DNA from: Gammaproteobacteria bacterium
GTDB lineage: Bacteria > Pseudomonadota > Gammaproteobacteria > Ga0077554 > Ga007554
Assembly: GCA_040183005.1 (NCBI GenBank)
Contig: JAMPIW010000007.1
Span: forward strand, 434,001-498,000
DNA length: 64,000 bases
Direction of reading: 5' to 3'
The notes under the pieces were generated by a model. It saw nothing but the letters and a program-made list of their open reading frames with translations. It was not told where the DNA came from and ran no database searches. A program made the position numbers and the translations under genes. Positions 18,718-56,806 of the stretch are shown in pieces. The stretch's first letter is position 1, and each line of letters starts with the position of its first letter.

Positions 18718-19335
18718 ATGATTAGCCCCGTTTTACTGTGTCGCATATTGCTGCTGTTTGGGCTAATGTCACTGGGAGGATGCGCAGCTATTGGCAATTT
18801 TGCAAGCAGTTCGCTGGAGGCAATTGGGCTAAAAAAACCAGATATTCCTGACATCCCTAATATCCCTGAAATTCCGGAGATTCCTGATGCGCAAAAACCA
18901 CCCAGGACAATTGTGCTGAAGTTACATGCCGGGGAGAATTTGAATGCCGGTGCGAATGGCCGACCGCTTGCCTTGGTCGCGCGCATCTACAAACTCAGGC
19001 AGAATGGGGCTTTCCAACAGGCAACCTACGACACTTTTCTAAATCCACAAAAAGAGAAAGAAGTTTTAGGTGCAGAGCTACTAGAAGTCAAAGAAATAAC
19101 GCTTATCCCAGGGCAACATTATGAAGTTACGGAAAAGGTAACGAAAGAGGCATATTACATAGGTGTGGTGGCGCTTTTCCGTTCCCCTGCGGCTCAGCGC
19201 TGGCGGGTCACGTTCCCTGCCAAAGAAGCAGAAAAGTCAGGTATCATAGTCGGCGTACATGCGTGCGCCCTTACCGTAGGAACGGGCGCTGTTATTGCCG
19301 ACAATGTAAACTTACGTTCCCTGGTGCGCTGCTAA
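18718..19335 (+). CDS. tssJ: T6SS outer-membrane lipoprotein TssJ
   Basis: 205 residues with a lipoprotein signal (LLLFGLMSLGGCAAIG, Cys near 22). An unusual linker follows, a run of Ile-Pro-(Asp/Asn/Glu) triplets at about 42-56, then the TssJ transthyretin-like fold with RPLALVARIYKLRQNGAFQQA, LIPGQHYEV and YIGVVALFRSPAAQRWR. TssJ anchors the TssL-TssM complex to the outer membrane. Divergent from the sheath arm and first gene of the plus arm. Confidence 0.93.
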   Translation: MISPVLLCRILLLFGLMSLGGCAAIGNFASSSLEAIGLKKPDIPDIPNIPEIPEIPDAQKPPRTIVLKLHAGENLNAGANGRPLALVARIYKLRQNGAFQQATYDTFLNPQKEKEVLGAELLEVKEITLIPGQHYEVTEKVTKEAYYIGVVALFRSPAAQRWRVTFPAKEAEKSGIIVGVHACALTVGTGAVIADNVNLRSLVRC

Positions 19336-19373
19336 TTATATGATTAGTAGATATGTTCAATTGAGATGAAAAT

Positions 19374-20723
19374 GTGAATATAAACTCCAAGGTTCTATGG
19401 GGGGAGGGGTTGTTTTTACGCCCACAACACTTCCAGCAGCAGGACCAATATCATGAGAACCGTCTGCACGAAACTGTAAATGCTCTCCATCCTTACTTAT
19501 GGGGTGTGGCGGCCTTGTTGTTGGATCGTGACGCATTATCAAATAACACGCTACGTCTGTCCGAGTTGACGCTCATTTTTCAGGACAGTGAAATAGTCAA
19601 AGCTCCGGGCGAGGATGACCTGCCAGATGCGGTAAATTTGAGCGGAATTCCGCTTTCGCAGCAGACGATCACTTATTATGCGGCGTTACCATCGCTGAAA
19701 AGTTTTGGTGGCAATTTTTCGCCATCAGGGCATCCCGTAAATAGCTCGGCTCGTTATGCGCAGACCAGCCTTGAAACACCTGACCTGTTCACGCAGGCTG
19801 CAAAGGCTGAGCTATCTTACTTGAAGAAGACTGTACGTTTAGTGTCTGAGTTGGAGCCGCGTGATTCTTATGTGAGTTTTCCGCTGGTCCGGTTACGCCG
19901 CGCCTCAACAGGTGGGTTTGAAGTGGATCCGACGTTTATACCGCCCAGCCTCTCTATTCGTAGTGCGCCGGGTTTGTTTTTGCAACTGCGTCGATTGATG
20001 GATGCTCTGCAAGCGAAGGTGAATGCACTTTACGGTTACCACCGCGAGCCGAGTAAAAATATTATTGAATTTCGCTCGGGCGACATTTCTTCGTTTTTGT
20101 TGCTGCACACGGTGAGTTCGGCTTTTTCTTCGCTTACACATTACCTTCATCATCCGGCCTTGCATCCCGAGCGCTTGTATGAACAGTTGCTTGGCTTGGC
20201 GGGGGCCTTGATGACGTATTCAAAAAATTACGCCTTGACAGATTTGCCTGTTTACACGCATCAAGACCCCGGCCCCTGCTTTGCCAAGCTTGATTCGATT
20301 ATTCGTGGGTTACTTGACACGGTGATCTCATCGAAATATTTCTCGATTGCACTGTCTGAAATCAAGCCGTCTTACTACCATGGCATGCTTGATTCCGGAA
20401 AAATCAATGATAAAACTGTTTTTTACTTGGCGATAGGTGCAAATTTACCTGCGATAGAGCTGGTTGACATCGTGCCATTACGTTTCAAAATCGGCGCGCC
20501 AGACGATGTGGAAAAATTTGTGTTATCTGCGATGCCTGGTGTGAAATTGGTGCATACACCGCAGGTGCCTGGGGCAGTCCCGGTGCGGCCTGATACTTAT
20601 TATTTTTCAGTTGAAAATAAAGGCCCAATGTACGAGCGTATGTTGCAGGCACAATCTATTTCGATCTATGTGCCTTCCGGTATCCCCGATCTTAAACTTG
20701 AGCTTCTTGCCGTTACCTTATGA
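19374..20723 (+). CDS. tssK: T6SS baseplate-membrane adaptor TssK
   Basis: A 449-residue TssK/VasE protein. KVLWGEGLFLRPQHFQQQDQ is the diagnostic N-terminus, with LRRLMDALQAKVNALYGY in the middle and YERMLQAQSISIYVPSGIP near the end. The start is GTG at 19374; the nearby ATG at 19372 is out of frame. TssK connects the baseplate to TssL and TssM. Its stop overlaps the tssL start by ATGA, so the two are coupled. Confidence 0.96.
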   Translation: MNINSKVLWGEGLFLRPQHFQQQDQYHENRLHETVNALHPYLWGVAALLLDRDALSNNTLRLSELTLIFQDSEIVKAPGEDDLPDAVNLSGIPLSQQTITYYAALPSLKSFGGNFSPSGHPVNSSARYAQTSLETPDLFTQAAKAELSYLKKTVRLVSELEPRDSYVSFPLVRLRRASTGGFEVDPTFIPPSLSIRSAPGLFLQLRRLMDALQAKVNALYGYHREPSKNIIEFRSGDISSFLLLHTVSSAFSSLTHYLHHPALHPERLYEQLLGLAGALMTYSKNYALTDLPVYTHQDPGPCFAKLDSIIRGLLDTVISSKYFSIALSEIKPSYYHGMLDSGKINDKTVFYLAIGANLPAIELVDIVPLRFKIGAPDDVEKFVLSAMPGVKLVHTPQVPGAVPVRPDTYYFSVENKGPMYERMLQAQSISIYVPSGIPDLKLELLAVTL

Positions 20724-21496
20724 TTAAAATGTCAGCCCCCTCCTTGCTCGACGCACCGGCGAGTCAGCGCCCGGTTGCGGAGTCATTTTCGACTGCGCAC
20801 TCTTTGATGGATCTGATGTACGACGGTTTTTACGTACTTTTCATGTTGAAGAATCTTTGCATACCGCAAGATGAGGTCACCTTTTCGAGCAAGATGGTGG
20901 AATTTCTCGATAATTTCGACCGCAACGCAAAAAAACTCGGCGCTTCCGCCGATGATATTCATGCTTCCAAATATGCGTTTTGCGCGGCGATCGATGAGAC
21001 CATTCTACGTTCTCAATTTAGCATTCGGGCGGCATGGGAGCGCTACCCGCTGCAACTGGTCTTGTTCGGCGATCACCTTGCCGGTGAAAATTTCTTCGTC
21101 AGATTGGATGAGCTTCGCGCCAAAGGTGCATCACATGTCCAGGCATTGGAGGTGTTTCACATGTGCTTGTTGCTGGGCTTCGAGGGAAAATACATCATTG
21201 AAGGCACAGAAAAGCTGAAATACCTGACGGCGCGTCTGGGTGATGAAATTGCCCACATGAAAGGCAAAAGCGCGGGTTTCGCCCCGCACTGGGCGCGCCC
21301 CGATCAGATCATCAACAAGCTGCGCAATGACGTTCCGCTATGGGTCATCTGCTCGGTCTTCGCGCTTATTGCCGTGTCGGGATATGCGATGTTGAACTGG
21401 AGTTTGTCGCGCGCGACGCAAGCCAGTATCAATGGTTATAACGACATTGTGAAATTAGCCCCCCACGCCGCGAACATCACGATTACGCTCCCCTGA
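20720..21496 (+). CDS. tssL: T6SS inner-membrane protein TssL (DotU type)
   Basis: 258 residues. The cytoplasmic DotU domain has LMDLMYDGFYVLFMLKNL, KYAFCAAIDETIL, GENFFVRLDELR and CLLLGFEGKYIIEG. One membrane span lies at about 211-231 (VPLWVICSVFALIAVSGYAM), and a short periplasmic tail ends the protein. It lacks an OmpA-like peptidoglycan domain, the common short form. It would pair with TssM, but the next gene is destroyed. Confidence 0.95.
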   Translation: MIKMSAPSLLDAPASQRPVAESFSTAHSLMDLMYDGFYVLFMLKNLCIPQDEVTFSSKMVEFLDNFDRNAKKLGASADDIHASKYAFCAAIDETILRSQFSIRAAWERYPLQLVLFGDHLAGENFFVRLDELRAKGASHVQALEVFHMCLLLGFEGKYIIEGTEKLKYLTARLGDEIAHMKGKSAGFAPHWARPDQIINKLRNDVPLWVICSVFALIAVSGYAMLNWSLSRATQASINGYNDIVKLAPHAANITITLP

Positions 21497-28319: not shown

Positions 28320-29789
28320 TTAAGGTTTAACGCTGCTTGGCTCCGCCAGTGCTCGCTCCTGCAGCTCCTTGAGCCGCGCCTCGATGCGTGAGGCACGGTA
28401 AAAATCCTTGTCCTGGACCAGACGCAGCCCGATGTTGAGCTGATCAATCGCGGTGCGCGTCTCGCCGCTCAGGTAATAATATTCCGCCAGTGATTGATGC
28501 GCGTCCACAGTGTATCCCGCGTCCTTTTCGGCGCGCGCGAGCAGTGCATATAAAGCAGGGTCTGGGTCGCGGCTCCGGAGATGATCTTTCAGCAGCAATC
28601 GGGCTGTCTCAGCCTGCCCGTCATTCAGCAAGGCTTCGGCGTATGTCATGGTAAGGGGATGGTTGTTAGGGAGCAGCTTGAGCGCCTCACCTAATCTCGA
28701 TACTGCGGCGCCAGGCTGTTTGTCCGCCATGTCGACGTCAGCCGATGCAACCAGATAAGCGATCCGGTTCGGTTCCGTCTCCAGCAGTTTTCTGATTTGG
28801 GTTCGCGCTTCGCTGTACCGGTCTGCGGCGAGCAGGGCCAGGGCATAGCCGTAGCGCTCGTCAGTTCTGGCTTGCCGCCCTTTTTTGACCGCGTCTTCAA
28901 ATGTTTTGATGAGGCTGATTGGGTTTGCTGCGCTCAAAACCCTTAGCTTGGCACGTATCAGGCGATAAGCCTCGCGTTCCGTGTATCCCTTGGCCGAATA
29001 TTGCTCGGCGCGATTACGCGAGTCCGCGATACGTGACAAAGTGACAGGGTGTGTGCGCAAGAACTCGGGCAGTCTGTTGTCATAGAACCGGCTGGCCTGA
29101 TGCATACGCTCAAAGAACAGTGGCATGCTGTGTGGATTAAATCCTGCGTTGGCAAGGATTTGCATCCCGAGGCGGTCTGCCTCCTGCTCGTGGGCACGGG
29201 TGAAATTCAGCCGGTTTTGCACACTACCCGCCATGGTGGCCATCACTGCTGCCTGCCCGATTTGAGCGTTACCCCCGCTCAGAATCAGCGCCGCGAGCAA
29301 TGCGGCGGTGGTAGGCACGTTCATTTTGTTGGCCTTTTCAATGGCGCGTGCGAGATGGCGCTGTGTCACGTGCACGATTTCGTGGGCCAGCACCGAGGCC
29401 AGCTCGCTCTCAGATTCGGCGGCCAGTATCAGGCCAATGTGTATCCCAATGAACCCGCCGGGTGCGGCAAATGCGTTGATGGAAGGATCATTGATGACAA
29501 AAAAGGTGAAGTCCTGGGCGGGGTTGTCGCTGTTCGCCACCAGTTGATAACCCAGAGACTGGATGTATTCAGTGATCTCCGGGTCGTCAACCAGTAGCGT
29601 GGATTGCCGAACCTGGCGCATCAAGCCCTCGCCCATCCGCCGTTCTTCGTCGGGGGAGACGATAGCGCCCGAGGTGTCGCCCATGCTGGGCAACTCCACC
29701 GCAAAGCCCTGGTTGAGCGGTCCAGCGACGCATGCCAAAAGGCAGGCCAGCCCATAGGCTTTGATTCGTAACTTACCGGAAAGCGTCAC
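28320..29789 (-). CDS. bepA: Periplasmic M48 metalloprotease/chaperone BepA-like
   Basis: 489 residues with a signal peptide (cleavage near 30), an M48 domain with HEIVH (zinc ligands, near 137), the third ligand region EADRLG, and an FAAPGGFIGIH loop. The C-terminal half holds TPR repeats (DRYSEARTQIRKLLETEPNR and AAVSRLGEALKLLPNNHPLT), as in E. coli BepA, which helps LptD assembly and degrades failed outer-membrane proteins. It is full length and monocistronic, and divergent from the eps operon. Confidence 0.93.
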   Translation of the reverse strand: MTLSGKLRIKAYGLACLLACVAGPLNQGFAVELPSMGDTSGAIVSPDEERRMGEGLMRQVRQSTLLVDDPEITEYIQSLGYQLVANSDNPAQDFTFFVINDPSINAFAAPGGFIGIHIGLILAAESESELASVLAHEIVHVTQRHLARAIEKANKMNVPTTAALLAALILSGGNAQIGQAAVMATMAGSVQNRLNFTRAHEQEADRLGMQILANAGFNPHSMPLFFERMHQASRFYDNRLPEFLRTHPVTLSRIADSRNRAEQYSAKGYTEREAYRLIRAKLRVLSAANPISLIKTFEDAVKKGRQARTDERYGYALALLAADRYSEARTQIRKLLETEPNRIAYLVASADVDMADKQPGAAVSRLGEALKLLPNNHPLTMTYAEALLNDGQAETARLLLKDHLRSRDPDPALYALLARAEKDAGYTVDAHQSLAEYYYLSGETRTAIDQLNIGLRLVQDKDFYRASRIEARLKELQERALAEPSSVKP

Positions 29790-29963
29790 TATTTATCCGT
29801 TTCAAGCATTGATTCAGTTAATGTGGGGTCTTGATTGGCATTATTCTATAGTGGAGGCGATCATCACTTCAGGGTTTTTTTGTCGACCCGTCGTCAAAGG
29901 GCGACGCATTGTTTTGTTATATGCCGCCGCAATGCTGGTTCACGGGGAGACATTTTCGTAATA

Positions 29964-29988
29964 TGTTATACATTGTCTAATTATAACA
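29964..29988. promoter_or_regulatory. Candidate upstream activator site of the eps promoter
   Basis: TGTTATA (29964-29970) and TATAACA (29982-29988) form a perfect inverted pair with an 11-bp spacer, centred about 90 bp before the predicted transcription start. This position and dyad shape fit an enhancer-binding-protein site for the sigma-54 promoter. No experimental support. Confidence 0.4.
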
Positions 29989-30038
29989 ATAAGATGAGGT
30001 CTTTATGGTAAGTGACACATAACATGCAATGAAAAATA

Positions 30039-30054
30039 TGGCATCATGATTGCA
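30039..30054 (+). promoter_or_regulatory. Sigma-54 promoter of the eps operon
   Basis: TGGCAT-CATGA-TTGCA matches the sigma-54 consensus TGGCAC-N5-TTGCW in all but one base, with the required GG (30040-30041) and GC (30052-30053) ten bases apart. Transcription should begin near 30065, 100 bp before epsD. In exosortase/EPS systems the PrsK-PrsR pair drives such promoters; those genes are not in this window. Confidence 0.75.
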
Positions 30055-30099
30055 TTATAGTTCAAGATAGTTCAAGTTAATGATGGTTGTCATGATGCC
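30040..30099. repeat. Inverted and tandem repeats overlapping the eps promoter
   Basis: GGCATCATGA (30040-30049) inside the promoter is matched by the perfect inverse TCATGATGCC (30090-30099). Between them ATAGTTCAAG occurs twice in direct tandem (30057-30066 and 30067-30076), across the predicted start. The pattern suggests an operator that could block or loop the promoter, or a leader hairpin. Confidence 0.55.
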
Positions 30100-30164
30100 T
30101 GTATGACTACTGATATTGTTTAACGTATAATAATGCACCAACAAAAAGCGTGGGAATAAGGGAA

Positions 30165-31124
30165 ATGCACCAAAAAACATCAAAGTACGCCGGTCTACTG
30201 TTTTCTACCTTTTTGCTCGTCACCCTCAGCGCCTGCGGTGACAAGAGTGACACGGGTGGCAAGACCGAAACCGAAACCCAAGTGGTTGCAAAGGTTAACG
30301 GTGACGAGATAACGGTCCATCAGCTCAATTTTGAACTCTCCGCCATGGGTCAGGCGGCTGGGCCAGGTGCAGAGCAGCGTATGCGGCAGGTAGGAGAGCA
30401 GATCGTCAATCAGCAATTATTGATGCAAAAGGCTATCGAAACCAAGCTGGACCGTGACCCCCGGATCATGCAGGCACTGGAACGGGCGCGGCGCCAAGTG
30501 CTGGCTCAGGCCTATCTGGACAAGACAGTGGGGAATGTTACGCCGCCCAGCAAGAGTGAAGCTGATGCTTACTACAGCCAGCATCCCGAATTGTTTTCCA
30601 AACGGCGCATTTATCAACTGCGTGAAATTGTGATGGACAAGAGCATTCCTTTTGCTGAGCTTCAGGCGAAGGTGAGCAGCGTGAAATCGCCCGATGAACT
30701 GGGCCAATGGCTCCAGGCCAAAAAAGTTGAGGCAAAGGTCGCTAATATAGTAAGGCCTGCGGAACAGTTGCCCTTTGACATGCTGGCAAAAGTATCTCAA
30801 ATGCAGAATGGTGAAATCGCCGTGTTCGAATCCCCATTAAATAATGTGTTATTATTCCTGGTTGCCAGTCAGGAGCAGCCTTTATCGCAAGAGCAGGCGA
30901 CGCCAATCATCGAGCGTTTTTTGGCCAACAAGAAACGCAAGGATTTGGCCGAGGCCGAGGTGAAGCGGCTGCGTGAAACGGCCAAAATCGAGTGGTTAGG
31001 GAAATTTGCAGCTGGTGCTGCGGCGGATAAAAATGCTCCGGCAGCGGCGGCTGGCCCAGGCGTGAATCATGATCCTAAAAAGGATGACGCAGATTTTATC
31101 GGCAAGGGAGTTTCTGATTTTTGA
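30165..31124 (+). CDS. epsD: EpsD-type peptidyl-prolyl isomerase lipoprotein of EPS export
   Basis: 319 residues of the TIGR02925 EpsD family. Lipoprotein signal LFSTFLLVTLSACGDK (Cys near 24), then a SurA-like N-domain (VVAKVNGDEITVHQLNFELS, MRQVGEQIVNQQLLMQKAIE) and a degenerate rotamase-like domain (RRIYQLREIVM). The C-terminus is Ala/Pro/Asp-rich. It probably helps folding of export components in the periplasm. First gene after the sigma-54 promoter; ATG at 30165 has AAGGG 5 bases upstream. Confidence 0.88.
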   Translation: MHQKTSKYAGLLFSTFLLVTLSACGDKSDTGGKTETETQVVAKVNGDEITVHQLNFELSAMGQAAGPGAEQRMRQVGEQIVNQQLLMQKAIETKLDRDPRIMQALERARRQVLAQAYLDKTVGNVTPPSKSEADAYYSQHPELFSKRRIYQLREIVMDKSIPFAELQAKVSSVKSPDELGQWLQAKKVEAKVANIVRPAEQLPFDMLAKVSQMQNGEIAVFESPLNNVLLFLVASQEQPLSQEQATPIIERFLANKKRKDLAEAEVKRLRETAKIEWLGKFAAGAAADKNAPAAAAGPGVNHDPKKDDADFIGKGVSDF

Positions 31125-31233
31125 TGGAAAGATTGTGGCACGCTGGCCTTTGTCGTTCTGTACCCGCCATGTCACAGTAATGTCATAAATGAGTACCATA
31201 ATGCGCCATCCTGTTAATCATGAAATTTTGAGC

Positions 31234-32031
31234 ATGTTGAACCGATTCTTTGTTGTTTTCCTTTTCCTGACCACGCTGGGTTTTATGCCCGCGCCGGCTT
31301 TAGCCAAGGACTATGTTCTCGGGGCTGGCGATGTTGTGCGTATTACGGTATATGAACATACCGATCTCAGCACGCTAACCAGAATAAGCCAGACGGGGGG
31401 TATCTCCTTCCCGCTCATCGGTGAAGTGTTTATCGCGGGAATGAAAGAGCGCGAAGCCGAGGCTAAAATCGGCGCGCTCCTTCAGCAAGGCGGATTCGTC
31501 AAATCACCCCAAGTCAATTTGATAGTCGAACAGTACCGCAGCCAGCAGGTTTCAGTGTTGGGTGAGGTGAACAAGCCAGGCATGTACACGATCGACCGGG
31601 GCAGCAAAGTGGTGGATTTGCTGGCCATGGCGGGCGGCGTGAACGCCAGTGGCGGCGATGCCGCGGTGCTGATCAAGAAAAATGGCAGCGAAGGGATCGG
31701 TGGACGCCCCATTGACCTGCTGGCTCTCCTGCAAAAAGGCGACATGACCCAGAATATGGAGGTCACCGACGGTGATATCGTGTACGTCCCGCGCATGGAG
31801 GTATTTTATATCTACGGCGAGGTGCAGCGCCCCGGCTCCTACCGACTGCAAAGAGACATGACTGTGATGCAGGCATTGTCCATGGGCGGAGGTCTGACGC
31901 AACGCGGCACTCAGCGCGGTATACAAATCAAACGCAAGGATGCCAAGGGTGCGCTAACATCAATCAGCGCTGAACTGTTTGATGTTCTGAGGCCTGATGA
32001 CGTGGTTTACGTCAAGGAAAGCCTGTTTTGA
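31234..32031 (+). CDS. epsE: EpsE polysaccharide export outer-membrane protein (Wza type)
   Basis: A signal peptide MLNRFFVVFLFLTTLGF ending at ALA, then the Poly_export domain (DYVLGAGDVVRITVYEHTDL, GGISFPLIGEVFIAGM) and two SLBB domains (VSVLGEVNKPGMYTIDRGSK and IYGEVQRPGSYRLQRDMTVM). It forms the export channel. I chose the ATG at 31234 because the signal peptide starts there; in-frame ATGs at 31189 and 31201 would add up to 15 residues. Full length for TIGR03028. Confidence 0.92.
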   Translation: MLNRFFVVFLFLTTLGFMPAPALAKDYVLGAGDVVRITVYEHTDLSTLTRISQTGGISFPLIGEVFIAGMKEREAEAKIGALLQQGGFVKSPQVNLIVEQYRSQQVSVLGEVNKPGMYTIDRGSKVVDLLAMAGGVNASGGDAAVLIKKNGSEGIGGRPIDLLALLQKGDMTQNMEVTDGDIVYVPRMEVFYIYGEVQRPGSYRLQRDMTVMQALSMGGGLTQRGTQRGIQIKRKDAKGALTSISAELFDVLRPDDVVYVKESLF

Positions 32032-32247
32032 TGCGTTTGTTTTACACGGTAATTGCGTGCTCAGGGTACTCTAAAAAATTTTCACTCCGAGCTTGGTCGT
32101 AGTCCAGATAGTTTTTAATTGGATTCCCGCCCCCATCCTCGGATTTATGTCCTTCGGGTATCCGCGAGGGGCAGGTAATTACACGGAAGTGAGGAAAATT
32201 AACAGATATTCCCGTAACCAACATTCAAAGAGGCATGGCTCCATATC
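32032..32247. other. epsE-epsF spacer
   Basis: 216 bp, long for an operon. No gene seen. A GC-rich imperfect stem (CCTCGGAT near 32134 with ATCCGCGAGG near 32159) could fold in the transcript. Nothing else recognised. Confidence 0.35.
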
Positions 32248-33618
32248 ATGAGCTTTCAGCAATTTCTGCAAATCCTGCGTGCGAGATACCGTCTTATCCT
32301 TTTTACCCTGCTGATTACAGTGGGTGCCACAGCTGCGGTGACTTATTACCTGCCCAATCAATACACCGCCAGCGCTGTTTTAGTGGTCGACTTCAAGGAG
32401 CCAGTGACGGATGGCATGTCTTCGTCGCTGCCTCTGCAACTTTCCCCTAGTTATATGGCTACCCAACTGGACATCCTCAGAAGCCGTAAGGTCGCGCTCA
32501 AAGTAATCGACACCCTTAAGTTAGTTGATGCTCCAGTGGTGCGGGATCAGTTTCTTGAGGCCACCGAAGGAAAGGGGTCGATTCGTGACTGGTTAGCCGA
32601 TGCCTTGCTCAAGAAGCTGGAGGTGGAACCCTCGCGCGAGAGCCGTCTTATGACGGTTAATTATGAATCCACCGACCCTCGGTTTGCCGCCGCCCTGGCC
32701 AACGCCTTTGCCCAGGCCTATATTGACACCACGCTGGAGTTGAGCGTCGAGCCAGCGCGCAAAAGCGCGGAGTGGTTCGATAAACAGCAAGCGGGCTTGC
32801 GCACTCGGGTAGAAGAGGCGCAGCGCAAGCTGTCTGCATACCAGCAGATCAAAAGCATCACCGCGACGGACGAACGGCTGGATGTTGAGACGGCGCGCCT
32901 TGCCGAGCTTACCAGCCAGATGGTGCTCGCCCAGGCCCAAACCTACGACTCCGAAAGCCGCCAGCGGCAAATGGAAGAGATGCTCGCAAAAGGCGCCTCC
33001 ATGGAAACCCTGCCTGAGGTTTTAGCCAATGGTTTTATCCAGAGCCTCAAAGGCGAACTGCTGCGCCAGGAAGCCAAGCTGGCGGAGTTGTCCGAACAAT
33101 TGGGTGCCAACCATCCCCAGTATCAACGTGCCGTAGCGGAAGTGAAAAACCTGCGTGAAAAGCTCACCAAGGAAATGACCTCTATAACCAGCGGCATAAG
33201 AAACAACACCAAGCTGGCGCACAGCCGCGAGGAGTCGATAAGGGCGTCTGTAGCGGCGCAGAAGGCCAAGGTGCTGCAATTTAAACAATCGCGCGATGAA
33301 ATACCCACGCTGATTCGTGAGGTAGAGAGTGCCCAGCGTTCCTATGACGCCGCGCTGGAACGTTTTAACCAATCCACCCTGCAAAGTCGCGTCAACCAGA
33401 CCAATGTGGTGCTGCTCAATCCCGCCGTTGAAGCTGTTAAACCGTCCAGTCCCAAAGTGTTATTGAATCTGGCGTTGTCAGTATTTCTTGGTACGATGCT
33501 GGGGCTTGGGATGGCTTTGCTGTTCGAGATGCTGGATCGGCGGGTACGTACCGGTCAGGATTTGACCGAAGCCTTAGGGTTCCCTGTGCTCGGCATACTT
33601 GAAAAAGGCAAGGCTTAA
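32248..33618 (+). CDS. epsF: EpsF chain-length determinant (Wzz type)
   Basis: A 456-residue polysaccharide co-polymerase. Membrane spans lie near 16-36 (LILFTLLITVGATAAVTYYL) and 410-430 (LLNLALSVFLGTMLGLGMAL). The Wzz domain (QQFLQILRARYRLILF, TASAVLVVDFKEPV), the coiled-coil middle (QRKLSAYQQIKSI, GELLRQEAKLAELSEQLGAN) and the GNVR-like VNQTNVVLLNPAVEAVKPSSP motif are present. It sets chain length together with EpsG. Ribosome site AGAGG upstream. Confidence 0.93.
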   Translation: MSFQQFLQILRARYRLILFTLLITVGATAAVTYYLPNQYTASAVLVVDFKEPVTDGMSSSLPLQLSPSYMATQLDILRSRKVALKVIDTLKLVDAPVVRDQFLEATEGKGSIRDWLADALLKKLEVEPSRESRLMTVNYESTDPRFAAALANAFAQAYIDTTLELSVEPARKSAEWFDKQQAGLRTRVEEAQRKLSAYQQIKSITATDERLDVETARLAELTSQMVLAQAQTYDSESRQRQMEEMLAKGASMETLPEVLANGFIQSLKGELLRQEAKLAELSEQLGANHPQYQRAVAEVKNLREKLTKEMTSITSGIRNNTKLAHSREESIRASVAAQKAKVLQFKQSRDEIPTLIREVESAQRSYDAALERFNQSTLQSRVNQTNVVLLNPAVEAVKPSSPKVLLNLALSVFLGTMLGLGMALLFEMLDRRVRTGQDLTEALGFPVLGILEKGKA

Positions 33619-33658
33619 AAAGCCAGTAACATTTCCAAGGAATCAAGAGCGATAAACC

Positions 33659-34579
33659 ATGCGATTAACCGGCACGAAAGAAAAGTCCACCATCATTGCA
33701 TCTGACTTGGATGCGGAATCTTTATTCGCGACAGAGGCGCCGCTGCAACTGGTAGGCCGCAACATGGGCGCAATTCTGGTGGATTCCGGAAAGCTCAAGC
33801 TGGAAGATGTCGAACGCATACTGCGCCTGCAAAAAGAGCAGGGGTTGCGCTTTGGAGATGCAGCGCTCAAGCTCAAATTGGTCAGTGCGGAAGATATTCA
33901 GCATGCACTATCCAAACAGTTTGCATACGCTTATCTCCGCCCAGGGGAGGGCGGTTTTGCCAATGATCTGGTGGCGGCCTATAAGCCCTTCAGCACGCAA
34001 GTCGAGGCCCTGCGCGCCTTGCGCAGCCAATTGATGCTGCGCTGGTTTAACGATGAGCACAAGACCCTTTCCATTGTCAGCCCAGGCGCACAAGAAGGCC
34101 GCAGTTACCTTGCCGCCAATCTGGCTGTGATATTTTCCCAGCTTGGTGAGCGCACCCTGTTGATTGATGCCGACCTGCGCAATCCCCGCCAGCACGTCAT
34201 TTTTAACCTGTCCCGCAGCACAGGGCTGACATCCATACTGGCTGGCCGCGCGGGGCAAGACGCCATCGCGCGCATTCCTTACTTTGCCGACCTCTCCGTT
34301 CTGGCGGCCGGTCCCATTCCTCCCAATCCGCTGGAGCTTTTGGGGCGCCCTGAGTTTTCGGGGTTGCTGGACGATCTAAGCCAGCGCTATGATGTCGTTC
34401 TTATCGACACGCCGGCTGGCGGCGTGTATACCGATGCCATGACAATTGTGGCGCGTGCGGGTGGCGCACTGATGTTGACACGCAAGGATCATACCCGCCT
34501 TGGCGCAGCCAAAGCTCTCGCATCCCAACTCGCCGCCTCTGACGCGGCGGTAATCGGTAGCGTGCTTAACAAATATTGA
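33659..34579 (+). CDS. epsG: EpsG tyrosine-kinase-like ATPase with MshEN-like N-domain
   Basis: 306 residues. The N-terminal part (about 38-92) matches the MshEN/GspE-N repeat: NMGAILVDSGKLKLEDVERI and LRFGDAALKLKLVSAEDIQH, a fold known to bind cyclic di-GMP. The C-terminal BY-kinase domain has a changed Walker A (SPGAQEGRSYLAANLA, Arg in place of the usual Lys), Walker A' LLIDADLRNPRQH and Walker B VVLIDTPAG. There is no C-terminal tyrosine cluster, only one Tyr at the end. It is the cytoplasmic partner of EpsF. Cyclic di-GMP control is inferred. Confidence 0.85.
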   Translation: MRLTGTKEKSTIIASDLDAESLFATEAPLQLVGRNMGAILVDSGKLKLEDVERILRLQKEQGLRFGDAALKLKLVSAEDIQHALSKQFAYAYLRPGEGGFANDLVAAYKPFSTQVEALRALRSQLMLRWFNDEHKTLSIVSPGAQEGRSYLAANLAVIFSQLGERTLLIDADLRNPRQHVIFNLSRSTGLTSILAGRAGQDAIARIPYFADLSVLAAGPIPPNPLELLGRPEFSGLLDDLSQRYDVVLIDTPAGGVYTDAMTIVARAGGALMLTRKDHTRLGAAKALASQLAASDAAVIGSVLNKY

Positions 34580-34656
34580 TGTGATTGGTTTGATCTCTAC
34601 TACCCTGGAGCGCAACGCCTCAAGGATTTGGTGAAACAGAGAAGGAATAGCTTTAT

Positions 34657-35583
34657 ATGAAAAAGACCATCACAAAAGCCGTTTTTCCAGTAGCCGGCAT
34701 GGGCACCCGATTCCTGCCCGCCACCAAGGCCAACCCCAAGGAAATGCTGCCGATCGTCGACAAGCCGCTGATCCAATATGCGGCAGAAGAGGCTATTTCA
34801 GCCGGAATCAAAGAACTGATCTTCGTCACCAGTAGCAATAAGCGCTCAATAGAAGATCATTTCGACAAAAATTACGAGCTGGAAGCAGAGCTGATAAAGC
34901 GCGACAAGCAGCAACTGCTGGATATCGTGCATGGCATACTGCCCAAAGGTGTATCGTGCGTATATGTGCGCCAGCCTGAGGCGCGCGGATTGGGTCATGC
35001 TGTTTTGTGCGCCAGGCCGGTAGTCGGCAATGAACCATTCGCCGTTATCCTCGCCGACGACCTGATCGACGATGGTGGCGCGGGTTGTCTCGCGCAAATG
35101 GTGCAGCAGTTCGAGCAACAAGGATGCAGTCTGCTGGGTGTGGAAGAAATCGCCCCCGATGAAACCGACAAATACGGCATTGTCGATGCGACTCCCTGGT
35201 GCGAAAGACTGGCCCGCGTCGATGCCATCGTCGAAAAACCCAGGCCCGATGTCGCGCCGTCCACGCTGGCGGTGGTTGGGCGTTACATTTTGAACCCACA
35301 AATTTTTGACCTCCTGGAAAACCAATCTGCCGGTGCCGGCGGTGAGATCCAGCTTACCGACGCCATTGCCCGGCTGCTGCAAGAATCCCTCGTATTGGCG
35401 TACCGTTTTCAGGGCAAACGCTACGACTGCGGCAGCAAACTCGGCTATCTCGAAGCCACCGTGCAATACGCCTTAAAACACCCGGAACTGGGGCAGGACT
35501 TTAAAAACTATTTGCAATCATTAGAGAGTCGTTTAGAGAACCCTTCAGCGCATAGTGAACAACCACGCTACCGTATTGTTTGA
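34657..35583 (+). CDS. galU: UTP-glucose-1-phosphate uridylyltransferase
   Basis: A 308-residue enzyme making UDP-glucose from glucose 1-phosphate and UTP. It has [20 protein letters not shown] at the N-terminus, [26 protein letters not shown] and a [11 protein letters not shown] segment with VGRYILNP. It supplies precursor for EPS. Ribosome site GAAGGA upstream; 77 bp after epsG. Confidence 0.97.
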
Positions 35584-35592
35584 CGAGAAATG

Positions 35593-35624
35593 TAGGTTGG
35601 GTCCGCTTCGCTTGACCTAACCCA
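35593..35624. repeat. Dispersed palindrome, copy 2
   Basis: TAGGTTGGGTC (35593-35603), CGCTTCGCTT and GACCTAACCCA; it is the reverse-orientation relative of the palindrome at 24708-24739, with one arm shortened. It follows galU. Confidence 0.65.
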
Positions 35625-35696
35625 CTTTAGTTGGACAGTATTGGGATTAAACTCAAGAAAAATGCATCAGGAACATGATATTTCATGGGGGTTGAG

Positions 35697-35993
35697 ATGA
35701 ACCGCCAGCAGATGATCGAGCGCTCTGAGTCCTATCTGCGCGAGCTACTTCGGGCGAACCTGCCGCCCGGTACGCCGGTCTATCTCTTCGGTTCCCGCGC
35801 ACGGGGGGACGGGCGTTGGAACTCGGATTTTGATCTCTGGATCGACGCCGACGTTGATCCGTCAACACTCTCCAGGTTTGGCGACGTGCTGGAGGAGTCT
35901 TTTGTCCCGTTTCACGTCGACTTCGTCACAACACGCCAGCTTGCCGGCCAGTTCGGCGCAGCAGTTCGCCAGGAGGCCAAGCGATGGATGTGA
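35697..35993 (+). CDS. MNT-type nucleotidyltransferase (antitoxin-like)
   Basis: A 98-residue minimal nucleotidyltransferase with the Pol-beta signature YLFGSRARGDGRWNSDFDLW and a third Asp in FHVDFVT. The start at 35697 has GGGGG 7 bases upstream; another ATG lies at 35685. It overlaps the HEPN gene by 10 bp. In MNT/HEPN pairs the MNT protein AMPylates and silences the HEPN toxin. The pair interrupts the EPS gene order. Confidence 0.88.
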   Translation: MNRQQMIERSESYLRELLRANLPPGTPVYLFGSRARGDGRWNSDFDLWIDADVDPSTLSRFGDVLEESFVPFHVDFVTTRQLAGQFGAAVRQEAKRWM

Positions 35994-36400
35994 GGCTCCA
36001 ATCTTTTTCTGAGGCCCTGGAGAGCTTTGCTTATCTGGCCAACGTCGATATCGCAGCACTGTCGGCCACGCTCGACCCGCGCCTGATCGACGGGCTGCAA
36101 AATGGGAAAGTACAGAAATTCGAATACACGCTGGAGCTTTGCTGGAAAGCAATCAAAGAATTTGTTAAACAGAATGAAGGCATAGATGAGGCATCGCCCA
36201 AGAAAGTGGCCAAGGCATTCTATCTTTCGGGTTACATACCCGAGGGTGACTATCTGGCGCTGATCCAGGCCATCGACGACCGAAACAAGCTCAGCCACAT
36301 CTACGAAAAACGTGAGTTCGACTTGATCCTTGCGCGACTACCCGAGTATGCCGGCCTCCTGCAACGGATTCTCGACTCCATGAAACGGGTGGCAAGCTAA
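35984..36400 (+). CDS. HEPN-type (HI0074 family) substrate-binding/toxin protein
   Basis: 138 residues, all helical, of the HI0074-type nucleotidyltransferase substrate-binding family. LELCWKAIKEFVKQNEG, PKKVAKAFYLSGYI and a DDRNKLSHIY segment containing RNxxxH, the HEPN RNase motif. So it could be an RNase toxin neutralised by the upstream MNT protein; family members in some systems act only as partner. Translationally coupled to it. Confidence 0.87.
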   Translation: MDVRLQSFSEALESFAYLANVDIAALSATLDPRLIDGLQNGKVQKFEYTLELCWKAIKEFVKQNEGIDEASPKKVAKAFYLSGYIPEGDYLALIQAIDDRNKLSHIYEKREFDLILARLPEYAGLLQRILDSMKRVAS

Positions 36401-36458
36401 CCATGAATTATGAGTCCGTTGGTCAGGATGTGGTTGAAAATCATTGTCTGAAATACGC

Positions 36459-36484
36459 ACCCTCTCCCGCACGCGGGAGAGGGT
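36459..36484. repeat. REP-like hairpin
   Basis: ACCCTCTCCCGC and GCGGGAGAGGGT pair over 12 bp with an AC loop. This palindrome is a widespread proteobacterial intergenic repeat. It may also end transcription of the MNT/HEPN pair. Confidence 0.75.
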
Positions 36485-36584
36485 GGGGCGCACACACTCA
36501 AGCTGTCACAATAATCATCGATAATTTCTGTAGGCATGTGACGAAATTTTTTCGCGCCAAGAAACAAATAGCTTAAGAGTAAAC

Positions 36585-37496
36585 ATGTCAACCACAGCAA
36601 CTTCAGGCGCGGCTATGTTACAAGGCGCTACCAGCTCCCTCAGGCAAACATGGCCCGTATTATTGGGCCTGCTTGTTCTGTATGTGCCCACTTTCTATGA
36701 TCTTTTGACCGGACTGTGGAGCTCGGAAGAGCAGGCGCATGGCCCCATGATACTTTTGCTTTCTGCTTGGCTAATTTATCGAAAATGGCCGCAAATGCTA
36801 CAAGCCAGTGAGGGAAAATCCACTTCACTGGTGGGTTGGCCGCTCTTTATTTGTGCCCTACTGCTATATATCGTTGGGCGTTCGCAGAGTATTCTGATTT
36901 TTGAGATTGGCTCATTTATATTGTTGCTGGCCTCCATATTTTTGCTGATGCGTGGTGGCAGTGCATTGAAGGTGCTGTGGTTTCCGTTGTTTTTTATGCT
37001 GTTCATGATTCCGCTGCCCGGCACGTTGGTGTCCGTTTTGACGTTGCCAATGAAAATGGCCGTATCGTATGTGACGGAGCACATTCTATTCTGGCTCGGT
37101 TACCCCATCGCACGCACGGGTGTAATCTTGCAGATTGGACAGTATCAATTACTCGTGGCTGATGCCTGTGCGGGTCTACAAACGCTGTTGACTTTGGAAG
37201 CCTTGGGCCTCTTTTACCTTAATGTTGTTCGGCACACCTCTGTTTTTCGTAACGTAGCCCTTGCCATCTTAATTGTGCCCATTTCATTTACCGCAAATGT
37301 TATCCGCGTCATGGTGCTTACGCTAATTACCTACCATCTCGGTGATGAGGCGGGTCAAGGGTTTTTGCATGGATTTGCGGGCTTAGTGCTATTCGTCAGT
37401 GCATTGCTGCTGATTATAGGGTTGGATTCCCTATTACAGTTGGCTGTAAAAGCAAGGGGGGCTCTTCATGCTGTACCCCCCAGGAACGTGTCATGA
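36585..37496 (+). CDS. xrtB: Exosortase B
   Basis: A 303-residue polytopic membrane protein of the exosortase family. The three catalytic residues are visible: Cys195 in ADACAGLQTL, Arg241 in NVIRVMV, and His262 in GFLHGFAG. EEQAHGPMILLLSAWLIYR near the N-terminus and LTLEALGLFYLNVV are the type-B signature. Exosortases process proteins with a C-terminal sorting signal at the inner membrane. It overlaps epsI by 4 bp. No protein with a PEP-CTERM-like tail is recognisable in this window. Confidence 0.9.
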   Translation: MSTTATSGAAMLQGATSSLRQTWPVLLGLLVLYVPTFYDLLTGLWSSEEQAHGPMILLLSAWLIYRKWPQMLQASEGKSTSLVGWPLFICALLLYIVGRSQSILIFEIGSFILLLASIFLLMRGGSALKVLWFPLFFMLFMIPLPGTLVSVLTLPMKMAVSYVTEHILFWLGYPIARTGVILQIGQYQLLVADACAGLQTLLTLEALGLFYLNVVRHTSVFRNVALAILIVPISFTANVIRVMVLTLITYHLGDEAGQGFLHGFAGLVLFVSALLLIIGLDSLLQLAVKARGALHAVPPRNVS

Positions 37497-38215
37497 CTAA
37501 GTCGTTAATGATTGGTCTTATTCTTGGTACACTAATGATGTTGGCTGCTGTATTAACCAAGGCCATGACGCCTACTATCCATTTGTCAAAGAGTCGTCCA
37601 GCGCTTGAGCTTAGCACAGCCATCCCTTTACAATTTGGCGAGTGGAGGGAAGAGAAAAAACTAGCCTCTGTTGTGGTGAATCCACAAGTGGAAGCTACGA
37701 TTAAAAGGATTTACACTCAAACGCTTTCGCGTACTTACATCAATAACAATGGGGAGCGGATCATGCTCTCCATCGCTTACGGTAACGACCAAAGAGATGC
37801 GGTTCAACTTCATTACCCTGAAGTCTGCTACCCCGCCCAAGGCTTCCAGGTCATCTCCAATCGACAAGGTGCTCTGGTAACATCGCAAGGCATAATCCCC
37901 GTTCGACGCCTTGAAACCAATTTCTCTAACCAGCGATTTGAGCCGGTGACTTACTGGACGACCGTCGGTGATGAAGCTGTCACAGGCGGGATAAGCAAAA
38001 AAATTGCCGAAATGCGTTATGGCCTTAAGGGCGAAATACCCGATGGGTTGCTTTTTCGTGTTTCATCTATCAACGCAGATACCCAAGCTGCTTTCGCGCT
38101 TCAGGAGTCATTTGCCAAGGCTTTATTGAATGAGTTGCAACCAGATATGCGACTTCGCCTTGCGGGCCTTGGCGCACCAGGCAAGGTTGGCGTCAAAGCT
38201 GCTACTCTTAGATAG
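37493..38215 (+). CDS. epsI: EpsI-family exosortase partner protein
   Basis: 240 residues with an N-terminal membrane anchor (LMIGLILGTLMMLAAVLTKA) and the TIGR02914/EpsI domain: IPLQFGEWREE, then YGNDQRDAVQLHYPEVCYPA with the CYPAQGF box, and YWTTVGDEAVTGG. EpsI accompanies exosortase in almost all such loci; its biochemical role is unresolved. Coupled to xrtB by an ATGA overlap. Confidence 0.92.
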   Translation: MTKSLMIGLILGTLMMLAAVLTKAMTPTIHLSKSRPALELSTAIPLQFGEWREEKKLASVVVNPQVEATIKRIYTQTLSRTYINNNGERIMLSIAYGNDQRDAVQLHYPEVCYPAQGFQVISNRQGALVTSQGIIPVRRLETNFSNQRFEPVTYWTTVGDEAVTGGISKKIAEMRYGLKGEIPDGLLFRVSSINADTQAAFALQESFAKALLNELQPDMRLRLAGLGAPGKVGVKAATLR

Positions 38216-53025: not shown

Positions 53026-56000
53026 TCACTGCCCTAAAGCACATCCGGCTGCGTTAACCACTTGCAAAGCTTGAGTTCCTTTACACGTATCCTGATAGTC
53101 CGGAATGCCATCACCATCCCCATCAGTTAGGCTGCTGTCGCGAGAATAAATGACCTCCGACCCATGCGGCGGGATGGCGTAAGGCCAGGTTATGCTTTGG
53201 CTATCGGTGAACCGAACATACTCGCTGCATAACAGGGCGTTGTTTCCATCGGGGCAGTTTGCAGCCAATATCGTACCAGTAGGGTTAATGAGCGCATGGC
53301 TACGCAGTGTTGCCTCTAAAGCGCTTAAAGGCACGAGCTCAAGATTTGCCACAGTTATATTCTCGCCTGGAAGGATGCCGTGGAAATCGACTCTGGCACC
53401 CCTGTCCAAGGTGGCCGGGTCATTTGCGTTTACGGTTTTAATCGCCTTGAAAATGAAGCTATAACGTTGCAAGTTGGTGGTTCCCGCCAGCTTCCATTTG
53501 TAAGGGACTCCCATCAGCTCTTCATAGCCATTGCTGCCGCCCCCCCCACGGCGCGGCGCAACGTAAACCGCTTGACCATTGGTGCCGGTTTTAAGATCGA
53601 AACTGATTTTATACCACTGGTCTTGCTGCACGGAGAAATTAGGGCTGTTCAATAGACTCTCTGAGGCGCCGGCCGTATACCGCAAACATTGACTGGTAGG
53701 CATGCACTGTTCCAACGCCCATTGGCCATGAGGGGCTGTCTGATTCCAATACCCCCAGCCCGTTGTGCTTAAGCTGAGGTTGCCATTAGGTACGATATTC
53801 CCACCGAGTGTACGAAATGCGGCATAGCCCATAGTGGCACTATTTACTTCGCGGGATGCTGGATCCAGATTACGCGGTAGATTAGTAGAGGTAACAGCAG
53901 CTTTCCATTTTGGCAGAGTGTAAACTGCCGCTCCACCCGGCCAGGATTCAGAGGAAATGGTGGTCCACAAAAAGGTGAAATAGAGATTGCGATCATAACT
54001 TGCAAAGCGATCCGTGTTGGTTTTTAGCAGATAGGTCTCCTGTCGGATTGCAGGTGCGGTCGAGGTTGAAAATAATCGGTTGCCAAGAACGAGATTGCTA
54101 TGAATATCCCCATCTGTACTCAGGCGGTTACTCCCCTCCTGTAGCCAGATGTGATGGCGGCGGTTGCCATACAAGGTATTGTTTTCGACGCGGTTGTTTG
54201 CGGCATTATGGAGCTGAATGCCATCGTCAGCGTCAACGACGGTGTTACCCCGGATAGTAATTCCGGAGGAAAGCTCGTCCAGATAGATACCCTGTGCATG
54301 GCTCCCAAGATTGGGCGCCTTTCCTGAAAGACCACCGATCACGTGATGTATGGTGTTATTTTCAATAGTGCTGTTATGGTTCTGACCCCACGTGTAAATA
54401 GCTGCGCAGTCGTCCAGCACCAGACAGGCATTCTCAATATGGTTGCCGGAAACAAGACTGTTGCTGGATGGTAATATACCTATATAGGCTGTTCCGTAGA
54501 TGCGATTTCCCCGAATAATGGCGCTTCTTCCTGCTTCTATTGCCACTCTTGCAGGAACAGGCAGGCTGCTAACGATACCATTTTTGGATTGAAGGCCGCT
54601 GTCTATGATGAGATTGTCATATGCGTGAAAACGGTCTGAATCGAGTCCCGCCGGGGAAGCAGAAATAGCGTCGCCGAGAGTTCGAATAATTTCGCTGTTT
54701 TCTACTCCACTATCTTTTGACAGCAGGGTGCGAACCCCAAAGCCTAAAGTATCGGATATGGTCAAATTGCGAAGCACGATGTTAGTGGCGTGCTGCATAC
54801 GCACTCCCATACCCACATTTCGAATTGCTAGACCGTCGATGCGTATATGGCTCAGATTACTGGCTTCGATACCTGAGGCAGACTTGCCGACTGAGATACG
54901 GCTGCCGGGGGCGGCGTTGTCTGCCATCCATACAGAGACGGTTTTTGTTGTGGCGTCATAATGCCACTCGCCTGGCTCATCAAGCATCCAGCGCTGACCA
55001 TAGAGAAAATAACCCCAGCCTTTTTCAAGTGAAGCCTCTGTAGGGCGGTCAAAGTACAGCCTGGAACCCGAAACAGAGGTGATTTTTCGGTCGTTTAAAG
55101 TCCATGCGTTAGGGCGGATGCGGATACCAGTGCCCGGTGCGATAGCTGTAAGGGCTGAAGCAGAAAGATCGGCCCCTGCAGTTAGATAACTACTGCCAGT
55201 CTGGCCGGAAGCAATACTTACCTTATCTGCGTTCTCGGCGATAGTATAGTAGAGTGATTCAGGCTTGAGTGAATTGTAGCCGCGGTTTGGATGGTGTGCG
55301 ACGTTGATGGCTTTACCACTGTCAAAAACGCCACTCACGTCGGTGATGGCAGTGGTAAGTTTTACGTTGTCCAAGCCAACGTTAAAGCCAGCAGGAACTA
55401 CAAAATCCAGGCGTGCATTAGATATGCTTGCCGTTGCAACGAAGGGTAGGACAAAAGTCTGCCAGGTACCGGTACCGACTATGGATGCGGCAAGACCGGC
55501 GGTATCCCAAGGCGCAACGCCTCGACGTAGGATCGCCTGAATTTGTACGCCCTGTGGCACCTTCACGGTAAAGCTTGCGATGTAAGATTGCTTGCCTTGA
55601 ATAGAGAAATAATTACTGGTGGCGATGCCATATTCTGAGCTGATGCTAAAGGACATACAGGTGTTATTTGTCTGGGCGCAATTATTAGTCAGACTCATTG
55701 TAGCGTCATTTTGCGGAGACCATTTCGTCCAATTGCCCAAGCCATTTTCAAATGTGCCGAATGTAATCAAATCAATGACTGAAGATACCTTATAGATATT
55801 GCCAGTATCACGAATCCAGTTATGGGCAGGGATAGGTGTTGAGCCGCTGATGATCGGTTTGTTGGCGCAAGCGTTCGGATAGGCGCCAATGTTTATAGGG
55901 CTGACGGCCGTGCCCGAGCTTTGAAGCGTAAGTGTTTCGTGCCAGATGCCTCCGCATTTGAGCAGTACGCTATCTCCCGGCATCAGCAATTTTTCAGAAA

Positions 56001-56169
56001 CTTTGCCCAGCGACTGCCAGGGACCATCGGTTGCGGGCGAGCCGATACGGGATGATTGGCTTCCGCTCCATTTATCGTTTCCGTAATTGGAGTCCACATA
56101 ATAGGTGGCCGCATTGGCGAGCTTCAGTGGTAAAACCAGCAATAAAAAAAGGGGGAAGCGTGCCTTCAT
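53026..56169 (-). CDS. Large secreted beta-helix protein with carbohydrate-binding-like and calcium-repeat regions
   Basis: 1047 residues. Signal peptide MKARFPLFLLLVLPLKLANA. Next TYYVDSNYGNDKWSGSQSS (the usual start of secreted beta-helix proteins), a jelly-roll-like segment (about 150-260), then a beta-helix (about 430-680) with NTIHHVIGGLSG, GITIRGNTVVDADDGIQLHN and NRVENNTLYGNRRHHIWLQE. A second jelly-roll-like segment (about 770-920) and a C-terminal calcium motif DGDGDGIPDYQDTC end it. No PEP-CTERM-type tail. Likely an extracellular polysaccharide-active or -binding protein, transcribed opposite to the EPS genes. No catalytic residues assigned. Confidence 0.8.
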   Translation of the reverse strand: MKARFPLFLLLVLPLKLANAATYYVDSNYGNDKWSGSQSSRIGSPATDGPWQSLGKVSEKLLMPGDSVLLKCGGIWHETLTLQSSGTAVSPINIGAYPNACANKPIISGSTPIPAHNWIRDTGNIYKVSSVIDLITFGTFENGLGNWTKWSPQNDATMSLTNNCAQTNNTCMSFSISSEYGIATSNYFSIQGKQSYIASFTVKVPQGVQIQAILRRGVAPWDTAGLAASIVGTGTWQTFVLPFVATASISNARLDFVVPAGFNVGLDNVKLTTAITDVSGVFDSGKAINVAHHPNRGYNSLKPESLYYTIAENADKVSIASGQTGSSYLTAGADLSASALTAIAPGTGIRIRPNAWTLNDRKITSVSGSRLYFDRPTEASLEKGWGYFLYGQRWMLDEPGEWHYDATTKTVSVWMADNAAPGSRISVGKSASGIEASNLSHIRIDGLAIRNVGMGVRMQHATNIVLRNLTISDTLGFGVRTLLSKDSGVENSEIIRTLGDAISASPAGLDSDRFHAYDNLIIDSGLQSKNGIVSSLPVPARVAIEAGRSAIIRGNRIYGTAYIGILPSSNSLVSGNHIENACLVLDDCAAIYTWGQNHNSTIENNTIHHVIGGLSGKAPNLGSHAQGIYLDELSSGITIRGNTVVDADDGIQLHNAANNRVENNTLYGNRRHHIWLQEGSNRLSTDGDIHSNLVLGNRLFSTSTAPAIRQETYLLKTNTDRFASYDRNLYFTFLWTTISSESWPGGAAVYTLPKWKAAVTSTNLPRNLDPASREVNSATMGYAAFRTLGGNIVPNGNLSLSTTGWGYWNQTAPHGQWALEQCMPTSQCLRYTAGASESLLNSPNFSVQQDQWYKISFDLKTGTNGQAVYVAPRRGGGGSNGYEELMGVPYKWKLAGTTNLQRYSFIFKAIKTVNANDPATLDRGARVDFHGILPGENITVANLELVPLSALEATLRSHALINPTGTILAANCPDGNNALLCSEYVRFTDSQSITWPYAIPPHGSEVIYSRDSSLTDGDGDGIPDYQDTCKGTQALQVVNAAGCALGQ

Positions 56170-56806
56170 AGGTAATTCTCCAACATGGTCATGTAAGCAG
56201 ATCAGGCCCCAAAGAAAATTTCAAAAACAGAACAGAGAGAGCTTTAATCGGCGTTGCTATATTAATTAATTCAACAAGGTTGCAGCATGTGCATATATTG
56301 TCGGCAGGATTAAGGAGTGACTTTAACTTTTATGGGCATCCTTGCGGACTTACACAGAGCAAGGTGGCTGGATTAATATATGCAATTTATATGCCATTTA
56401 ATAAAAAAATGAATAAAAACCAAGGTGTATTGCTCTTGATGTTGCTATCGGAAGGATTTATAGTGTCTCCATTGGGGGACACTTTCGGCGAGTATTGAGT
56501 TGAATTTGATTTGTTCTTCGTTTTATGGATTGTTAAGGCGGCGCATATTCAGCTTAGGTTTGATCCCCTAATAACTTGATTACGTTCGACTATTTTCGTA
56601 AATGGTTTCTCTTATTGGTCCAGATGAGTGCATGTCATTGTGTCTCATAAAAGTGGGCGGGGCTTGGAAGTCCCCCGCGGCATTCGGTGTCAGGCCGGAG
56701 CGTAAAGCGGCTGTTCTGCAGCAGTTGCTACTGCTCCCAGCCTGTCGGTGGAGAAGTCGCCCCAGCAGGAGGGTGTTTCTGACGTCATCCTGCGACACTT
56801 GGCCAA
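56170..56806. other. Intergenic region, left part
   Basis: Between the large beta-helix gene (minus) and the palindromic element. It is AT-rich to 56580, then GC-rich (56650-56800). The one long open frame (56602-57003) shows no family features and crosses the palindrome, so I reject it. A promoter for the minus-strand gene should be near 56180-56300, but no clear boxes are seen. Confidence 0.5.

Follow-up and report, generated by a model that had tools for sequence, protein, structure and literature searches.

Described sigma-54 systems and the epsD locus

In E. coli, GlrR is an envelope-sensing regulator, part of an envelope-homeostasis two-component system concerned with glmY and rpoE. The glmY gene of this species and of other Enterobacteriaceae is preceded by a -24/-12 promoter and by upstream TGTC-N10-GACA palindromes, three of which were read directly from the E. 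coli K-12 record (for example TGTCGCTTTCTGGCGACA). The published consensus for the sites of this regulator, also called QseF, is TGTC-N10-GACA (PMC8745638) or TGT-N12-ACA, with three sites at glmY, where a sigma-70 promoter overlaps the sigma-54 promoter in E. coli (PMC6075780). A second described system is that of PrsK/PrsR and the PEP-CTERM genes, at which a 17-nt motif ending in TTTACA lies about 63 nt 5' of the sigma-54 site (Haft 2006, PMC1569441). Finally, the pepA gene of Aquincola tertiaricarbonis is under experimentally demonstrated RpoN1 control, with mapped TGGCAC and CTGCTT elements (PMC9850573).

The locus studied here lies in a 64-kb stretch of DNA (the window, G000:C7:434001-498000) from a genome of 3.33 Mb, G000, for which genome-wide statements are based on pattern searches and on chosen stretches. 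The epsD gene (30165..31124, plus strand; an alternative GTG start is possible at 30150) encodes an EpsD-family peptidyl-prolyl isomerase (TIGR02925, 223.9 bits for a cut-off of 108.9) and is the first gene of an exopolysaccharide (EPS) cluster. On the same strand, epsE, epsF, epsG, galU, exosortase B (xrtB) and a type B epsI occupy 31189..38215, all of them above the cut-offs of their models (TIGR03028, TIGR03017, TIGR03029, TIGR01099, TIGR03113 and NF045609); the presence of epsD/E/F/G together with exosortase B and a type-B EpsI, with curated cut-offs exceeded, identifies the cluster as XrtB-type. Sugar-nucleotide enzymes, a flippase and glycosyltransferases are encoded 3' of epsI. Terminator-like sites between 30150 and 40500 are no commoner than in shuffled sequence, and the genes at 31189..38215 probably continue the epsD operon. 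Elsewhere in the window, the Type VI secretion genes tssJ, tssK and tssL were observed at 18718-21496.

Like glmY, epsD has a -24/-12 promoter with an upstream palindrome of the GlrR/QseF type. The two differ in their target, which is a small RNA in the case of glmY and an exopolysaccharide operon in the case of epsD, in the number of enhancer boxes (three and one, respectively) and in the lack of a clear IHF site at epsD. The PrsK/PrsR-dependent PEP-CTERM promoters resemble epsD in their sigma-54 type and in their tie to exosortases and EPS, and they occur in the same genome, but their box, TGTCG-N6-TTTACA, is part of the XrtA module, and at epsD it is either missing or very weak. The pepA gene of A. 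tertiaricarbonis is an exosortase-linked gene under RpoN control, a control that is predicted for epsD; its product is a PEP-CTERM protein, whereas the putative target here is the EPS operon itself.

The promoter region of epsD

A 375-bp intergenic region separates epsD from a divergent, upstream bepA-like gene (28320-29789). It contains a -24/-12 element (TGGCATCATGATTGCA; 30039..30054, plus strand; predicted transcription start at about 30065) that fits TGGCAY-N5-TTGCW, with GG and GC spaced by 10 bp. When the intergenic region was shuffled 2000 times with its dinucleotides preserved, such a match arose in 0.1% of the cases, and the pattern occurs 18 times in the G000 genome, the epsD element included, against eight times for a reversed-pattern control. 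The element is kept before epsD in both available orthologues: in G003 (TGGCATCATGTTTGCT), whose EpsD protein is 95% identical, and in G005 (TGGCATATTGATTGCT), whose orthologue is 70% identical and where the flanks have largely diverged, yet the element is preserved. A rpoN gene is present (G000:C1:87328, 235.9 bits). The original prediction, which read TGGCAT-N5-TTGCA at 30039 as the -24/-12 element of an activator-dependent promoter and made this reading contingent on the presence of rpoN, is supported by the occurrence of the element above chance, by its conservation and by the rpoN gene. Judged by these features, epsD starts from a genuine sigma-54 promoter, so that its transcription would depend on an activator. 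No match to a structured RNA was found with Rfam in the epsD leader.

A possible sigma-70-like promoter, ATGACT-17-TATAAT (10 of 12 matches), is located 3' of the sigma-54 element, at 30103..30131 on the plus strand. Its -10 element, TATAAT at 30126-30131, is conserved in G003 together with its surroundings. This is a weak indication that the sigma-70-like element could allow some basal transcription of epsD, as the overlapping sigma-70 promoter does at E. coli glmY, and the dependence on an activator may therefore be less than strict. A further-reaching interpretation would be that epsD is transcribed from this promoter and that the -24/-12 match is fortuitous. We consider it very unlikely, since two orthologues, one of them with diverged flanks, have kept the sigma-54 element, which is accompanied by a conserved enhancer box (see below). 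Moreover, the sigma-54 promoter is compatible with an additional sigma-70 start such as that of E. coli glmY (PMC6075780).

The original prediction had also assigned activation to a TGTTATA dyad (TGTTATA-N11-TATAACA, 29964..29988) and proposed an overlapping operator made up of an inverted pair (GGCATCATGA at 30040-30049 and TCATGATGCC at 30090-30099) and a 10-bp tandem repeat (GTTCAAGATA-GTTCAAGTTA, 30060..30079, plus strand) over the start. All the strings that it named, the -24/-12 element included, are present, but the roles given to the repeats did not hold up. Among the same 2000 shuffles of the intergenic region, 46% contained a 7-bp dyad; the share was 2.8% for inverted pairs of 10 bp and 1% for 10-bp tandems, with one mismatch allowed in the latter. 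In G003, the nearest relative, the symmetry of the dyad is broken (arms ATTTATA..AATAACA), the unit of the tandem repeat occurs only once and the arms of the inverted pair match imperfectly. A scan of the genome for the dyad returned one perfect occurrence; with up to three mismatches allowed, the dyad gave 62 sites and the reversed-pattern control 123. The dyad was thus ruled out as a regulon motif. It is probably not an activator site, and the tandem repeat is probably a recent duplication. A model in which the dyad serves activation and the inverted pair and tandem form an operator is consequently highly improbable, even though its strings exist and the AT-rich sequence in which the dyad lies is conserved in G003.

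This AT-rich block (TATACATTGTCTAATTATAACAATAAG, 29967-29993) is 89% identical between the window and G003, compared to 58% for the adjoining 45 bp, and it includes ATTGT-N9-ACAAT in both. It is possible that the block corresponds to a protein-binding site; no good match to the IHF consensus was found in it.

The GlrR/QseF-type box and its candidate activators

A GlrR/QseF-type enhancer box, CGTC-N10-GACG (CGTCGTCAAAGGGCGACG), occurs at 29889..29906 as an 18-bp palindrome located 132 bp 5' of the -24 element, outside the interval covered by the original prediction (29964-30099). Orthologous boxes are found at aligned positions in G003 (CGTCGCCAAAAGAAGACA; CGTC-N10-GACA, exactly 132 bp upstream) and in G005 (TGTCTCCGGAGGGAGACG; TGTC-N10-GACG, 110 bp upstream). 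The window box fits the family form, YGTC-N10-GACR, and has two mismatches, the outer bases C and G, to the strict enterobacterial TGTC-N10-GACA. When a matrix was made from ten family boxes, the epsD and 56-kb sites being left out, the epsD box came out as the best position for each of the three orthologues (window, G003 and G005), with scores reached by 1, 1 and 0 per 1000 shuffles, respectively. These figures are not fully independent, as related genomes supplied the boxes used for training, the matrix and the promoters tested. Only two positions of the 64-kb window reach that score, 29889-29906 and 56464-56481, and both lie 5' of sigma-54 sites. Nevertheless, the window box has the lowest score of all boxes in the set (12.6 versus 17-20 for the others), and with a matrix made from the three E. 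coli sites alone its score was reached by 46 of 1000 shuffles. In the G000 genome, a less strict box search that did not require the promoter gave 17 sites against 14 for the control, an excess so modest that the box by itself cannot be taken as diagnostic. A terminator-like hairpin is called at a position overlapping the box, but no plus-strand gene ends there. Between the box and the promoter, no IHF site better than two mismatches was found, and none above shuffles; ihfA is present in the genome.

The corresponding machinery is encoded in the same genome. A complete glrK-qseG-glrR set lies in an operon-like row at G000:C7:366.7-370.3 kb, with kinase, lipoprotein-like protein and regulator in the same order as in the glmY system. 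The kinase is 33% identical to E. coli GlrK. The qseG place is occupied by a small lipoprotein-like gene whose product has no significant similarity to E. coli QseG (E 0.1). Over 444 residues, the regulator shares 58% identity with E. coli GlrR. The two have in common a segment near the C terminus, RNRTEFYKLL, that belongs to the DNA-binding part and is not the same in PrsR, NtrC or the PilR-like protein; identity and shared segment point to an orthologue. The NCBIfam GlrR model gave 619 bits, under its cut-off of 763, and the protein is therefore GlrR-like by that model. GlrR is found in G001-G006 at 83-98% identity and was not seen in G007, an 85% complete genome.

The source genome encodes eight full AAA+ enhancer-binding proteins. 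NtrC and PrsR are above their NCBIfam cut-offs, and the remaining activators are nearest to GlrR or NtrX or are unassigned by model. PrsR is accompanied by PrsK and two PrsT proteins. The search for PrsK/PrsR or other enhancer-binding proteins that the original prediction had called for was thus successful, but PrsR itself does not appear to be the activator of epsD. Four PEP-CTERM genes (G000:C5:92205, C2:140614, L065 and L072; one of them has two boxes) carry perfect PrsR boxes (TGTCG-N6-TTTACA) 73-96 bp 5' of their sigma-54 sites, in agreement with Haft 2006. Upstream of epsD, where such a box would be expected at about 63 bp, none was found within two mismatches. Activation by PrsR through a degenerate box would account for the presence of PrsR, PrsK and PrsT, would extend the control of PEP-CTERM genes by PrsR that was predicted by Haft 2006 (PMC1569441) and could make use of a weak PrsR-like stretch (TTTCGTAATATGTTATA) that lies 68 bp upstream, the usual distance. 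Yet this stretch scores 11.3, compared to 21-24 for the PEP-CTERM sites, ranks about sixth in the 64 kb, has no counterpart in G005 and, in G003, is matched on the opposite strand, which makes control by PrsR unlikely. The other activators of the genome also have to be considered, namely NtrC, the PilR-like and NtrX-like proteins, the flagellar-type pair and the orphan at C7:1547346; NtrC is reported to govern EPS in Burkholderia cenocepacia (PMC5491218). However, no NtrC-type site within three mismatches was found upstream of epsD and the conserved palindrome fits GlrR; the remaining activators are only disfavoured by this, and an origin of the activation among these proteins seems improbable.

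We thus consider it probable that the epsD operon is under sigma-54 control and activated by GlrR from the box at 29889-29906. In that case, GlrK would phosphorylate GlrR upon an envelope signal, phosphorylated GlrR would oligomerise on the palindrome 132 bp upstream, reach the sigma-54 RNA polymerase via DNA looping and open the closed complex, and the eps operon, whose genes serve the assembly and export of exopolysaccharide together with exosortase B, would be transcribed from 30039-30054, starting near 30065. GlrR binding, its dependence on phosphorylation, the looping and the start site are all inferred from the sequence.

Predicted GlrR targets and their distribution

Eight genomes of the family were scanned for YGTC-N10-GACR located 5' of TGGCA-N6-TTGC. 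The combination was found eight times at 50-110 bp (none in the control) and eight times at 110-170 bp (one in the control). Most matches lie before epsD, a beta-helix gene, a gene for an exosortase acyltransferase or the neighbour of glrR; three seem unrelated or fall in coding sequence, and one G002 match was left out of the target assignment. As a target, epsD was recovered in G000, G003 and G005, and the beta-helix gene in G000 and G004. In the window, the latter (53026..56169, minus strand) encodes a secreted parallel beta-helix protein of 1047 aa with a TIGR03804 repeat match, at the distal end of the EPS locus. It is preceded by the second perfect sigma-54 site of the window (TGGCATATAAATTGCA; 56381..56396, minus strand) and, 67 bp 5' of it, by an exact TGTC-N10-GACA box (TGTCCCCCAATGGAGACA; 56464..56481); promoter and box have orthologues in G004. 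The beta-helix gene is accordingly predicted to be co-regulated with epsD. The exosortase-associated acyltransferase (TIGR03694) has box and promoter in G000, G001, G003, G004 and G005, with two boxes each in G003 and G005; in G000, G001 and G004 the pair was confirmed separately, and the -24 elements are more divergent. Box and sigma-54 promoter also precede, in six genomes, a small secreted EF-hand gene directly 3' of glrR (G000:C7:370808, L036), whose product matches a lanmodulin model below threshold (30 bits for a cut-off of 135). The boxes of the two regulators are reciprocal: PEP-CTERM promoters score high for the PrsR box and low for the GlrR box, and the epsD, beta-helix, EF-hand and acyltransferase promoters score high for the GlrR box and low for the PrsR box.

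Some GlrR-like boxes were observed apart from sigma-54 sites. A perfect one (CGTCTCTATTCGGAGACG) at G000:C7:117590-117607 (L143) is conserved in G001:C28:43617 (L148); by eye, the gene about 215 bp 3' of it looks like an undecaprenyl-phosphate sugar transferase for EPS priming. Another, at G000:C7:263368-263385 (L151), is conserved in G001:C4:73757 (L140), and the gene 3' of it looks, by eye, like a sensor diguanylate cyclase. No clear sigma-54 site was found near either box. Perfect boxes also precede signal-peptide genes in G004:C22:48563 (L145), where the product resembles by eye a subtilisin-type protease, and in G007:C119:3777 (L138); no sigma-54 site was found near these two.

The distribution of the epsD arrangement is restricted. 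No sigma-54 site was found in the stretches scanned before epsD of G001, G004, G006 and G007, nor before an epsD paralogue of the source genome that is 58% identical (G000:C6:34216-35139, L059) or its counterparts in G001 and G003; this control is thus not shared by all members of the family. The EpsD loci surveyed in Methylophilaceae, Thiobacillus and others have no consistent sigma-54 site before epsD, and the arrangement thus appears local to the family of G000.

In the open-licence literature, we found no publication that links QseF/GlrR to exosortase EPS or names a regulator of exosortase-B EPS clusters, and no exosortase-linked sigma-54 activators other than PrsR. The kind of promoter is known, and the GlrR target set predicted from these sequences appears to be unreported. 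On balance, we lean towards a scenario in which GlrK-GlrR has turned into an exopolysaccharide/exosortase regulator in this gammaproteobacterial family, with PrsR acting on PEP-CTERM proteins and GlrR on the XrtB eps operon, the exosortase-associated acyltransferase, the surface beta-helix protein and perhaps the priming sugar transferase and the diguanylate cyclase. If GlrR does control epsD, a system that serves envelope homeostasis in E. coli through glmY and rpoE would govern slime production elsewhere.
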